From assembly GCF_000244975.1 (NCBI RefSeq), contig NZ_CM001440.1, positions 1,725,538 to 1,789,537 on the forward strand: a DNA stretch of 64,000 nucleotides, written 5' to 3'. The notes under the pieces are model-generated. The model was not told the DNA's origin. It was given only the letters and a program-made list of their open reading frames with translations, and searched no databases. Position numbers and translations under genes: made by a program. The first letter of the stretch is position 1. Each line of letters begins with the position of its first letter. Positions 35,239 to 64,000 of the stretch are shown here, piece by piece. This DNA comes from Saccharomonospora cyanea NA-134. Lineage in GTDB: Bacteria; Actinomycetota; Actinomycetes; Mycobacteriales; Pseudonocardiaceae.

Positions 35239-36219
35239 ATGCGTTTGCTCGGGGTTGGAACCGATGCCGAGACAGTGTACGAAACGCTGATCAGACATCC
35301 CAACGCCGGCCTGGTGGAACTCGGGTTCTGGCTCGGGTGGTCGCAGCGCCGCCTTTCGGAGGCACTGTCCGAGTTGCAGCATCGGGAATTGATCGAATCG
35401 GGTTGGAAGGGCCAGCGGGGCCCCGTGCTGGTCGACCCGAGCGTGGCGTTGCCCCGCCTCGTCGAGGCAGGCGAACTCGCACTGCAGCGCTACAGTGACG
35501 ACCTGGACCAGGCCAGGACACTGGCTACCACCCTCATCGAGCGGCATCGGCAGGCGTTGTCCGAGCCCGCCGACTTCCCGATCCGGCAGGTGGTGGGCCA
35601 CGCCGCGGTGCGTGACGTCGGGGAGCGGCTCGCGGCGAGCTGTGATGCCGAGGTGTTGACCACGGTCCCGGGAGCGATGTCGGCGTCGGCCGACGGGGAA
35701 GAGGACCGCAGGCTGCTCGACCGGGGAATCCGGGTTCGAAAGCTGTGCCTCCGGAGTGCCACCAACGACTCGGCCACCTCGGAGCACCTGCGCCGGCTGG
35801 TGGGTGCGGGAGGCCAGGTGCGGACCGTGCCCAGCCTTCCCGTGCGGATGTCGATCTACGATCGCGCCGTCGCCGTGGTGGCGGTCGAGCCGCGGCGCTC
35901 GCGAGACGAGGTCGTGGTCGTGCGAGGCACCGCCATCCTGACGGCCCTGTGCGCGTTGTTCGACGGCGAGTGGGGCCGTGCGCCGGAACTCGACGCCCCG
36001 TCTAGCCGGGACGACGACGGGCTCACCGACCTGGAACACGAGGTCCTGCGGTTGCTCGGTGACGGCCACACCGACGCCGTGGTCGCCCGCAAGATGGGTG
36101 TGTCGGTGCGCACCATTCGGAGGGTGATCGCCGAGCTGGCGGAGCGTCTGGGCGCGCGCAGCCGGTTCCAGATCGGTGCGCGCGCCGTCGAAGCGGGGTG
36201 GCTGTCCGGGGGAGGGTGA
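35239..36219 (+). CDS. LuxR-type regulator with TrmB-like N-terminus
   Basis: 326 residues from the ATG at 35239, preceded by GGGGGAGG. The N-terminal part (TVYETLIRHPNAGLVELGFWLGWSQRRLSEALSELQHRELIES) is a TrmB/MarR-like winged helix. The middle resembles the phospholipase-D-like sensor fold of similar regulators. The C-terminus is a LuxR helix-turn-helix (LTDLEHEVLRLLGDGHTDAVVARKMGVSVRTIRRVIAELAERLG). Such proteins are frequent pathway-specific activators in actinomycete clusters. It converges on the sbnB-like gene. Confidence 0.8.
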   Translation: MRLLGVGTDAETVYETLIRHPNAGLVELGFWLGWSQRRLSEALSELQHRELIESGWKGQRGPVLVDPSVALPRLVEAGELALQRYSDDLDQARTLATTLIERHRQALSEPADFPIRQVVGHAAVRDVGERLAASCDAEVLTTVPGAMSASADGEEDRRLLDRGIRVRKLCLRSATNDSATSEHLRRLVGAGGQVRTVPSLPVRMSIYDRAVAVVAVEPRRSRDEVVVVRGTAILTALCALFDGEWGRAPELDAPSSRDDDGLTDLEHEVLRLLGDGHTDAVVARKMGVSVRTIRRVIAELAERLGARSRFQIGARAVEAGWLSGGG

Positions 36220-36230
36220 GCGGCGCCGCT

Positions 36231-62300: not shown

Positions 62301-64000
62301 GAGCTGCACCGGCTCGTCGCCGCGCAGGACGAACCGGGTGCGCAGCGACTCGTGCCGGGACACGAGCGCGTCGAGCGCCGCCTGGACGTCGGCGACGGCG
62401 ACACCACGGTCGATGCGCACGAACAGGGCCGAGATCCACTCGCGACTGCGCGGGTTCATCCTGTCGAGCAACCAGATCCGGCGCTGACCGGACGACAGGG
62501 GCAGGCCACCGTCGCGCGGTACGGGGCGGATGGTCTCGTCGGCGCGGCGGGCCGTGCCGAGCAGCTTCGCCTGGGCGGCGAGGGTCGTCGCCGAGAGCAG
62601 GGAACGGAGATCGATCTCGGTACCGCTGGCCTTGCGCAGGCGGTTGGCCAGCCGGGTGAACTGCAGGGACGAACCGCCGAGTACGAAGAAGTCGTCGTCG
62701 TGACGGATCTCGTCGATCTTGAGCAGCTCCCGCCACACCTCCGCGACGAGCGCTTCCTCCGCGCTGTCCGGGCGCGTGGGGGAGGGTGCGCGCTGGTCCG
62801 GTGCGGGCAGCGCGGACCTGTCGATCTTCCCGCTGCTGGTGGTGGGGAAGGCGGTGAGTCCGATGAACGCCGAGGGCAGGTGGGTCTCGGGGAGGTGTTC
62901 GGCGAGGAAGTCCCGCAGCCCGGCCGGGACCTCGCCGTCGGACGTGCGGACGTAGGCGGCGAGCCGGGTGCCGCCCTCGGCCGACGGATACCCGAGGACG
63001 ACAGCCCCGCCCAGTCCGGGATGCGCGGCCAGCGCGGCCTCGACCTCGCCCGGTTCGATCCGGACACCGTTGACCTTCACCTGGTGGTCGCGCCTGCCGA
63101 GGTAGGTCAGGACACCGTCGGGCTCCACGCGGACCATGTCCCCGGTGCGGTAGAGCCGCTCGCCCGACGTGCTCGTCGGGTCGGGAACGAAACGTTCGGC
63201 CGTGAGGTCGGGACGTCCCAGGTAGCCTCGCGCGAGACCTGTCCCGCCCGCGTGCAGCTCACCCTGCTCGCCCGCCTCGACGGGACGCCCACTCGGGTCC
63301 AGAACGAGGGCGCGAAGGCCGTCGATCGGGCGTCCGATCGGTACCGGCCCCGAGCGTTGGGCGGGGTCGAAGCGGTGGGCCGTGACGTCGATCGAGCACT
63401 CGGTCGGTCCGTAGGTGTTCCACACCCCGATCGCCGACGGGTCCGGCAGCCTGTTCAAAAACTGGTGCACCAACTCGGCGTGCAGCTGTTCCCCCGCGGA
63501 GAACAACAGACGTAGCGCGTGGCACTCGGCCAGCGCGGGTTCCTCCACGAGAACGCGCAGTAGTGAGGGCACGACCTGCAGCACGGTGATGTCGCGTTCG
63601 GCCAGGCAGCCTGCGAGCACGGCGGGGTCACGTTCGGCCCCGACGGGGGCCAGCACGACCGTCGCACCGCACACCAGTGGAGCGAAGACCTCCCAGATGG
63701 ACGCGTCGAACGTCAGCGCGGTCTTCTGCAACACCCGGTCGCCGGGGCCGAGCCCGTGGGTGCGTACCACCCAGTCGATCCGGTTCCCGATACCCGCGTG
63801 GGGCACGACCACGCCCTTCGGCGTGCCGGTCGAGCCGGAGGTGTGGAGCACGTAGGCCGCCGCGTCGGGGTCGATCACCGGTCCGGGGTCGTCGGAGGGC
63901 TGTCCGGCGGCCACGGAGAGGTCGCGGTCGAGGACCACTGTGCGCACCCCCGCCACGGCGACGGCGTCGTGGGTGATCGTCTGGGTGAGCACCAGCCGGG
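59310..64000 (-). CDS. Non-ribosomal peptide synthetase 2: A-T-C-A-T visible (5' end outside window)
   Basis: At least 1560 residues are visible; the N-terminus lies beyond the right edge. Order: a partial A domain (YVLHTSGSTGTPKG near 63820-63850; NTYGPTECSID), a T domain with GGSSLQF, a C domain with intact HHIVCDGWS (around 62105-62130), a second A domain (YVIYTSGSTGTPKG; NEYGPTEASVG) and a final T domain with GGNSILAIQ. By manual alignment the first A pocket reads D-A-W-Q-F-A-T-I-D (possibly glutamine-like); the second reads D-L-P-K-V-A-E-V-G, similar to the two domains of NRPS 1. No thioesterase, epimerase or reductase domain follows the last T, so release needs another protein. Confidence 0.92.
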   Translation of the reverse strand, partial: RLVLTQTITHDAVAVAGVRTVVLDRDLSVAAGQPSDDPGPVIDPDAAAYVLHTSGSTGTPKGVVVPHAGIGNRIDWVVRTHGLGPGDRVLQKTALTFDASIWEVFAPLVCGATVVLAPVGAERDPAVLAGCLAERDITVLQVVPSLLRVLVEEPALAECHALRLLFSAGEQLHAELVHQFLNRLPDPSAIGVWNTYGPTECSIDVTAHRFDPAQRSGPVPIGRPIDGLRALVLDPSGRPVEAGEQGELHAGGTGLARGYLGRPDLTAERFVPDPTSTSGERLYRTGDMVRVEPDGVLTYLGRRDHQVKVNGVRIEPGEVEAALAAHPGLGGAVVLGYPSAEGGTRLAAYVRTSDGEVPAGLRDFLAEHLPETHLPSAFIGLTAFPTTSSGKIDRSALPAPDQRAPSPTRPDSAEEALVAEVWRELLKIDEIRHDDDFFVLGGSSLQFTRLANRLRKASGTEIDLRSLLSATTLAAQAKLLGTARRADETIRPVPRDGGLPLSSGQRRIWLLDRMNPRSREWISALFVRIDRGVAVADVQAALDALVSRHESLRTRFVLRGDEPVQLVDPPSGCELTTATGAHDDFVTDLDAWLDQGFDLRTGPPVRALLYRPEAGEAVLVLAMHHIVCDGWSSAVLERDLREILAARSAGRPPALAPLPVQYADFAVWQRQRHDGDGVRSLVEHWRVILDDAKPTEPRTDLPRPARRDGRGGIVGFTVPASVATALDSLGKRVGATPFMTLLTGFATLLARYQAEWDVVVGTPVAGRDRPELENVVGFFLNNLVLRCSLDPGDDFTGAVAEVRDTCRDAFSHQDVPFDMLVAELAPDRDLSRTPLYQVAFDFHDEQLTGSAADPDDWRTLLDVSRIAKTDLTMYLRPRPDGSLAGGLEYATALFAEETVERMCRHFLALLDAVTADPTRPLAEIDFVAGEEAATLREVAAGAELGEKGFTDATVVDAVERQAADSPEATAVVCGSTRVTFAELDRAANRLAHRLRDLGAGPDRVVGVLLDRRPELLSTLLGVWKSGAAYLPLDPANPAARVAAVLSDAGASALVTTAAEWSRVSGEVDGVAPVLLDEEASTLAAGPSQPPARVCDADLLAYVIYTSGSTGTPKGVQVTHGGVANHVRWAVDELAKRGTGGAPVFSSVAFDLVVPNLWAPLAAGQPVHLVPSDVDLTELGTALTAAAPFSFLKLTPGHLKILSHQLDPAARAELANTVVVAGEVLPTVLAREWVGALGEGRLINEYGPTEASVGTCVHPVSPEPGGASVPIGKPLPGVTMRVLDDRLRPVPIGVVGELYVGGAGLARGYLGRPTLTAASFLPDPDGPPGGRLYRTGDLARVLASGDVEFVGRRDQQVKIRGHRVELAEIEGVLSADPRVRDAVVVADGDEAGRTVLAAFCTGADQVAVTDPTLVPDLLEACARQLPEYMVPTSCHVLERLPLSANGKLDRRALLAHLDEEADDTAALEGVVERRVAELFSELLGRPAGRDTDFFTAGGNSILAIQLVAAVQAAFETELPIRAVFEGPTVSALATVIEERVRAEIDELDDEDLGVTGAAGNLTR

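Follow-up and report, generated by a model that had tools for sequence, protein, structure and literature searches.

A nonribosomal peptide synthetase cluster of Saccharomonospora cyanea predicted to join a chloropyrrole starter with chlorotryptophan and ureidoalanine

Results

The chromosome of Saccharomonospora cyanea NA-134 carries a nonribosomal peptide synthetase (NRPS) cluster in which genes for a chlorinated pyrrole starter stand together with genes for 2,3-diaminopropionate (Dap) and a carbamoyltransferase of the Dap type. The cluster was found in a window of 64,000 nucleotides, the whole stretch of DNA analyzed (NZ_CM001440.1, 1,725,538-1,789,537), which is contained in a single contig of 5,408,301 bases. 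The cluster is real, and all of the parts that an earlier note had named from the letters are present in 35,239-64,000. We assign a probability of roughly 0.6 to the view that this is one cluster whose product would be a chlorinated peptide with a chloropyrrole cap, chlorotryptophan, ureidoalanine and Asn-like residues. The earlier note had proposed a chlorinated pyrrole-2-carboxamide peptide with Dap or ureidoalanine, and so much of it stands, but it omitted chlorotryptophan, to which a relative of tryptophan 5-halogenase in the cluster points.

Positions are given in window coordinates, continued into the next 38 kb beyond the window. Genes were called by a hexamer-based method and their proteins were scanned against Pfam and NCBIfam. 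By these calls and scans the cluster spans about 34,284 to about 72,473; the limits first given to it have therefore moved, its end lying about 8.5 kb past the window; this outer part holds a third NRPS along with genes for an AsnO-like oxygenase and an asparaginase. The grouping is not a product of chance, for its core recurs in three other genomes, those of Saccharothrix yanglingensis Hhs.015, Prauserella alba DSM 44590 and a genome of the same order that we call G373.

The Pyrrole Cassette and Two Halogenases

Four adjacent genes on the minus strand (54,919-59,226) make up the complete pyrrole-2-carboxylate cassette that had been claimed for this locus. They encode a PltA-type halogenase dependent on reduced flavin adenine dinucleotide (FADH2; 54,919-56,265), a PltL-like carrier protein (56,262-56,543; Pfam PP-binding), a PltF-like L-prolyl-carrier ligase (56,540-58,087), whose best solved relative is 6O6E, an L-proline--[L-prolyl-carrier protein] ligase, and a PltE-like prolyl-carrier dehydrogenase (58,084-59,226). 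Among its solved relatives, the PltA-type enzyme scores 747 bits with ChlB4, 690 with 5BUK and 618 with PltA. The PltF-, PltL- and PltE-like proteins would form pyrrole-2-carbonyl on the carrier, where the PltA-type halogenase would add one or two chlorines, to judge from its context. A PltA relative (63%) is also found on the Brasilonema octagenarum plasmid CP030122.1 (L255:10298-31338), beside genes annotated as encoding an acyl-CoA dehydrogenase, a ligase, an acyl carrier protein, a P450, an NRPS and a polyketide synthase (PKS).

The second halogenase (51,997-53,538, minus strand) is of a different kind. It matches tryptophan 5-halogenase 2WET, which we take to be PyrH, with 940 bits over residues 1-510, and both proteins contain GWMWTIP, an instance of the tryptophan-halogenase motif GWxWxIP. 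It is thus a relative of tryptophan 5-halogenase for which chlorination at C5 is predicted, and a chlorotryptophan residue is therefore expected in the product. A flavin reductase gene lies next to it (51,342-51,881, minus strand; Pfam Flavin_Reduct). The two FADH2 halogenases and the reductase named by the earlier note are accordingly present, as judged by Pfam and solved relatives, but the type of the second one changes the predicted product.

The most likely acceptor of such a residue is NRPS_C (65,346-71,291, beyond the window), with condensation (C), adenylation (A), thiolation (T) and epimerization (E) domains in the order C-A1-T-E-C (Pfam, NCBIfam). From an alignment we took nine code positions for each A domain. 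The A1 code is DAAAVGMVT, and its counterparts are DAAALGMVG in S. yanglingensis, DAEAVGMCT in P. alba and DAGAVGMCA in G373. Tryptophan is most likely the substrate of A1, because all four clusters include a gene for a tryptophan-type halogenase and the codes of the other modules are Gln- or Asn-like. It is possible, though we doubt it, that the halogenase instead modifies the pyrrole or another aromatic group and leaves residue 1 alone, so that the peptide would contain no chlorotryptophan. We could indeed not recognize the A1 code as one for tryptophan, and the P. alba halogenase is a more distant relative (57%); yet the best match of the S. cyanea enzyme is, over its full length, a tryptophan 5-halogenase, and the gene is kept in every one of the four clusters.

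A Dap-Type Transcarbamylase and the A2 Code

Both enzymes for Dap had been named in the earlier note. SbnA (53,869-54,876, minus strand) passes its NCBIfam equivalog cut-off with 418 bits against 350; for the dehydrogenase gene at 36,231-37,295 (minus strand), SbnB is the best NCBIfam family, at a score below the cut-off that we return to in the Discussion. The carbamoyltransferase (48,772-49,692, plus strand; Pfam OTCace) is a proposed ureidoalanine synthase. As the note had observed, its amino-acid loop is changed: alignment shows YTTRWQTTG at the position where two homologs assigned as ArgF carry the SMG loop, and YT(T/S)RWQTTG is present in 28 of 29 aligned Dap-type transcarbamylases, the remaining one having RWRTTG. 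HDLP in place of HCLP was considered as a further signature and dropped, since the ArgF-like homolog of S. cyanea itself also has HDLP. Among the transcarbamylase matches listed (28 of 28; best 60 of 447), none is named for zwittermicin or viomycin. A match on a plasmid of S. clavuligerus lies in a stretch without annotation. According to the passages of PMC4581275 drawn on here, zwittermicin A and viomycin each involve a Dap transcarbamylase that forms ureidoalanine, and most Streptomyces have homologs of this enzyme.

NRPS_B (59,310-64,000 and on to 64,331, minus strand; A2-T-C-A3-T) has the codes DAWQFATID (A2) and DLPKVAEVG (A3), and NRPS_A (42,302-48,736, plus strand; C-A4-T-C-A5-T) has DVPKVGEVG (A4) and DLTKVGEVA (A5). 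We take the A3, A4 and A5 codes to resemble that for Asn and the A2 code to resemble that for Gln. The asparagine-like pockets reported earlier thus describe three of the five A domains and not A2. NRPS_C ends in a C domain and NRPS_B starts with an A domain, which fits an order in which NRPS_C would precede NRPS_B.

The A2 code goes with the transcarbamylase in two partly overlapping sets of genomes. The first comprised 23 stretches, this cluster and relatives found mostly through TauD1, one of its oxygenases. Thirteen of these hold both the transcarbamylase and a domain with the code DA(W/L)Q-ATI/VD, a count that rose to 15 after extension (S. lavendulae and S. misionensis). In five more (MicroMP36, REN17, Slacri, CP22 and E2N166) the enzyme is present and no such code was read; the first four are limited by contig ends or by the stretch taken, and E2N166 has an A2-like piece (64%) whose code was not read. 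The last three lack the enzyme: P. alba and G373 have DAWQSGTIE, with no close transcarbamylase copy in the cluster or elsewhere in the genome, and A. oligospora has neither enzyme nor code.

The second set consisted of 397 genomes of the order, of which 32 contain the transcarbamylase or a homolog (E 1e-70 or better), with an identity of at least 56% in 27. A2-like A domains were collected at E 1e-125 or better, with only three candidates scored per genome, and gave 42 rows (30 with the locus read, 12 unread). DAWQ(F/C)ATID was found in 18 of the 30 domains read, the A2 of this cluster included, and all 18 come from enzyme-bearing genomes; 15 are on the contig of the enzyme, 7-53 kb away, and three are on another contig in fragmented assemblies. 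The 12 other close A domains are four of the DAWQSGT type (G373, P. alba and two Lentzea) and eight of the DVWH type. For one of these 12, a more distant homolog of the enzyme (47%) lies less than 60 kb away; for two others, the genome contains a homolog at another place. Fisher's test gives P = 7e-5 for linkage on the same contig and 1.5e-5 for presence in the genome, values that are optimistic because the genomes are related. In the nine remaining enzyme-bearing genomes we read the region around the enzyme: G181 and G168 have DAWQCATID; G362, G239 and G354 have DATQFALID; G322 has DAWQFGLID about 19 kb from the enzyme; G306 and G164 have other codes; and the stretch read for G097 contains no A domain. 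The linkage between code and enzyme strengthens the reading of residue 2 as ureidoalanine. With the gene set and the shared core, it also bears out the earlier proposal that a chloropyrrole starter is joined here with Dap/ureidoalanine chemistry.

Could residue 2 instead be glutamine or plain Dap, the carbamoyl group being added later on the chain or elsewhere? This would agree with the closeness of the A2 code to a glutamine code, with the DAWQ start kept by relatives that lack the transcarbamylase and with DAWQFGLID in one enzyme-bearing genome. We nevertheless consider it unlikely, given that the ATID ending tracks the transcarbamylase in 18 of 18 cases and gives way to GTIE in two orthologous clusters without the enzyme. 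A term search of the main text of a paper on an A-domain predictor (PMC13126170) returned no occurrence of the word ureido.

Three side observations concern these genes. The S. yanglingensis cluster has a stand-alone A domain with the code DAWQFATID. It also has an extra protein of 668 residues (L153:2727-4733) that, by motif, we take to resemble carbamoyltransferases of the CmcH/NodU type. Genome G286 (L043, L044) has a different NRPS cluster with SbnA, SbnB, an MbtH-like gene, the transcarbamylase and the same A2 code; we left it out of the orthologous clusters, its tryptophan halogenase being separated from these genes by about 20 kb of other genes that carry no annotation.

Comparison with Known Systems

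To our knowledge, hormaomycin has no ureidoalanine and no tryptophan halogenase, and zwittermicin A and viomycin/capreomycin have no chloropyrrole starter and no tryptophan halogenase. Capreomycin likewise involves a Dap transcarbamylase and ureidoalanine. Cassettes of the pyoluteorin/marinopyrrole type share the PltF-, PltL-, PltE- and PltA-like set, but their starter feeds a polyketide synthase, whereas here it goes to an NRPS. Pyrroindomycin, which we take to be linked to PyrH and built on a different scaffold, shares a relative of tryptophan 5-halogenase. In the sections of the sources used here, hormaomycin of Streptomyces griseoflavus is likewise a nonribosomal peptide with a chlorinated pyrrole-derived cap, but has nitrocyclopropyl-alanine and propenylproline of its own (PMC13194151), and zwittermicin A and viomycin share the Dap transcarbamylase that makes ureidoalanine (PMC4581275). 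Rotihibin of Streptomyces scabies is, by the parts of PMC8552735 used, a short peptide with a ureido residue (citrulline, Cit) and hydroxy-Asn; it was rejected as the product on account of its fatty acyl cap and diaminobutyrate (Dab). The word carbamoyl is absent from the main text of that paper.

Searches of the open-access literature on the chemistry, the organisms and the A-domain codes gave no described product joining these parts among the matches listed, and no match at all for the codes. Saccharomonospora clusters have been surveyed against MIBiG, according to the portion of PMC7990883 used here. It seems improbable that the product is a known compound with a MIBiG cluster that is missing from the papers searched, although open-access searches do leave out most subscription papers. 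We rate the cluster as a new combination of known chemistry with an orphan product.

One Cluster in Four Genomes

G373 was found by searching the 397 genomes with the tryptophan halogenase, and S. yanglingensis and P. alba by a scan of named genomes with TauD1 (best 80 of 138 relatives); P. alba DSM 44590 is also counted in the order sample, as G046. All three keep the three NRPS genes, the pyrrole genes, the tryptophan-type halogenase, the reductase, the exporter of the major facilitator superfamily (MFS), the MbtH-like gene, the thioesterase (TE), the AsnO-like enzyme and both TauD genes. G373 has orthologs of PltE (72%), PltF (63%), PltL (68%), PltA (83%), the tryptophan halogenase (79%), the AsnO-like enzyme (72%), NRPS_C (52%), NRPS_B (63%), NRPS_A (59%), TauD1 (72%), TauD2 (67%) and SbnB (60%). 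S. yanglingensis has the same set (SbnB 71%) and, in addition, SbnA (79%), the transcarbamylase (69%) and the asparaginase (54%), whose gene separates NRPS_C from NRPS_A. Within the 80 kb read, P. alba has no ortholog of SbnA, SbnB, the transcarbamylase, the LuxR-type regulator or the asparaginase, and G373 has no SbnA or transcarbamylase, a relative of SbnA (54%) being located on another contig.

Gene order differs among the four clusters, yet the core set stays together. This leaves a negligible chance that two neighboring clusters, one for pyrrole and one rich in Asn, merely abut, as the presence of genes on both strands and in several operons might suggest: all three NRPS and both gene sets occur together, in differing order, in three other genomes. 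The possibility raised earlier, that the two NRPS halves belong to separate clusters, can thus be set aside. Streptomyces niphimycinicus 4503 and two Lentzea species have a partial relative of the cluster, with a PltA-type halogenase (78-81%) and a PltL relative; the stretch read gave no PltE match and no A domain with a code of the PltF type.

Oxygenases, Release and Other Genes

The two oxygenases that the earlier note had called SyrP-like are enzymes of the TauD family by Pfam, TauD1 (39,455-40,366, plus strand), which has the iron-site residues HNE and a distal H in its sequence, and TauD2 (40,409-41,380, plus strand). The count was short by one, the third oxygenase being the AsnO-like enzyme beyond the window (64,393-65,349). 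Its closest solved relative is AsnO (265 bits, compared with 161 for clavaminate synthase and 118 for arginine hydroxylase). Relatives of TauD1 with an A domain of the DLPK type recur in Microbispora (L081, L083, L086, L087, L091-L094, L096, L097), which suggests that TauD1 acts on the residue of that module; no transcarbamylase match was found in the 10 kb flanks of these loci.

Pfam scans found no TE domain in any of the three NRPS, and we therefore attribute release, provisionally, to the stand-alone thioesterase (41,443-42,156, plus strand; Pfam Thioesterase), which adjoins TauD2 in the three other clusters and may alternatively serve in editing. In the second C domain of NRPS_A (residue ~1240), CHPILEG replaces HHxxxDG; S. 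yanglingensis also has CHPILEG, and P. alba and G373 have CHPVQEG. The type II asparaginase (71,493-72,473, L005:9493-10473, beyond the window; Pfam) stands beside NRPS_C and is kept in S. yanglingensis; asparaginases of 47-48% identity are found near TauD1/TauD2 at two Actinomadura loci (L076, L104).

The remaining genes encode a LuxR-type regulator (35,245-36,219, plus strand; Pfam GerE), with orthologs of 50-53% in two relative clusters, a SARP/BTAD regulator with NB-ARC (37,267-39,141, minus strand; Pfam), a predicted MFS exporter (49,689-50,939, plus strand; Pfam; orthologs 62-68%) and a small protein (50,977-51,255, minus strand) without Pfam or NCBIfam match, of which S. yanglingensis has a 40% relative in the equivalent position. 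The gene for a protein of 73 residues (53,585-53,806, minus strand; orthologs 66-75%) was taken from its motif to be MbtH-like; it has no NCBIfam match, and a longer open reading frame overlapping it in another frame has no Pfam match. To the right of the cluster are two small genes without Pfam match and then, by Pfam, a sodium symporter, a galactose-1-phosphate uridylyltransferase and a glycoside hydrolase, a side that we take to be outside the cluster.

At its left edge lies a gene for a small membrane protein like those of the VTT/DedA superfamily (34,284-34,772, minus strand; 162 residues), a candidate self-protection gene. Its VTT_dom match misses the Pfam cut-off (26.8 bits against a gathering score of 33.9), each of the 11 aligned members matches VTT_dom with an E value of 0.01 or better, and a profile search against PDB gave no match. 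Relatives are found inside or bordering the S. yanglingensis (53%) and G373 (49%) clusters, and a second copy, 52% identical, is present in the S. cyanea genome at 1,875,011-1,875,514. When a cluster contains an additional copy of a conserved membrane gene, this can point to self-protection. Homologs (E 1e-12 or better) occur in 81 of the 397 genomes, as a single copy in 68; S. cyanea has two copies, G373 three, S. yanglingensis two and P. alba one, which is not in its cluster. However, 11 further genomes of the order also have two homologs, which weakens the argument from duplication, and we regard self-protection as a lead only. The part of PMC11474028 used here links DedA proteins with undecaprenyl phosphate and with lipopeptide antibiotics.

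Discussion

The genes suggest the following pathway. Tryptophan would be chlorinated by the 5-halogenase relative and the flavin reductase before loading, and NRPS_C would take the chloropyrrole starter, add residue 1, most likely chlorotryptophan, and epimerize it. SbnA and SbnB would make Dap, the transcarbamylase would convert it to beta-ureidoalanine, and A2 of NRPS_B would load this as residue 2. A3 of NRPS_B and A4 and A5 of NRPS_A would then add Asn-like residues, hydroxylation being carried out on free Asn by the AsnO-like enzyme, on carrier-bound residues by the two TauD enzymes, or both. Finally, the stand-alone thioesterase would release the chain and the MFS pump would export it. 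Of this, the gene set, the order of domains, the families of the enzymes, their conservation and the linkage of code to enzyme are read from sequence; the substrates, the order of the three NRPS, the number of chlorines and the release step are deduced. The product that we infer is chloropyrrole-carbonyl–D-(5-chloro)Trp–ureidoalanine–three Asn-like residues, partly hydroxylated. As a linear acid with dichloropyrrole, chlorotryptophan, ureidoalanine and three Asn it would have a calculated [M+H]+ of 871.18, higher by 15.995 for each hydroxyl and lower by 33.96 with a monochloropyrrole.

Several points weigh against this structure. It is a prediction from genes. The A1 code matches none that we could name, and tryptophan is proposed for it solely from the conservation of the halogenase and by elimination. 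SbnB misses its NCBIfam cut-off (240 bits against 327), though it is still the best family of its gene, and the G373 cluster keeps SbnB without SbnA. The PltE-like dehydrogenase is likewise below the cut-offs of its best families (PigA, 442 against 500; RedW, 427 against 650), and ChlB4, the closest relative of the PltA-type halogenase, presumably acts on a non-pyrrole substrate. As for residue 2, the proposed reading of DAWQ(F/C)ATID rests on linkage; related genomes are non-independent trials; a transcarbamylase homolog is also present in the source genomes of three of the 12 other A domains; and the code is found in 20 of the 27 enzyme-bearing genomes, with DATQFALID in three, DAWQFGLID in one and neither in three, which makes the linkage incomplete.

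The furthest-reaching form of the proposal is very unlikely to hold in all its parts at once. It would make the product, a peptide with three chlorines and the structure chloropyrrole-carbonyl–D-5-chloro-Trp–ureidoalanine–(hydroxy)Asn3, the founding member of a new antibiotic class; the host would be protected by the duplicated DedA-superfamily protein, which would suggest recycling of the undecaprenyl-phosphate carrier as the target; and DAWQ(F/C)ATID would be a general actinobacterial code for beta-ureidoalanine.

In sum, the enzymes are of known kinds and their combination appears to be new. For an orphan cluster present in a cultured type strain and three relatives, the analysis offers a specific structure that can be tested, and the proposed ureidoalanine code would make it possible to interpret many actinobacterial clusters that have a Dap-type transcarbamylase and are as yet unread.

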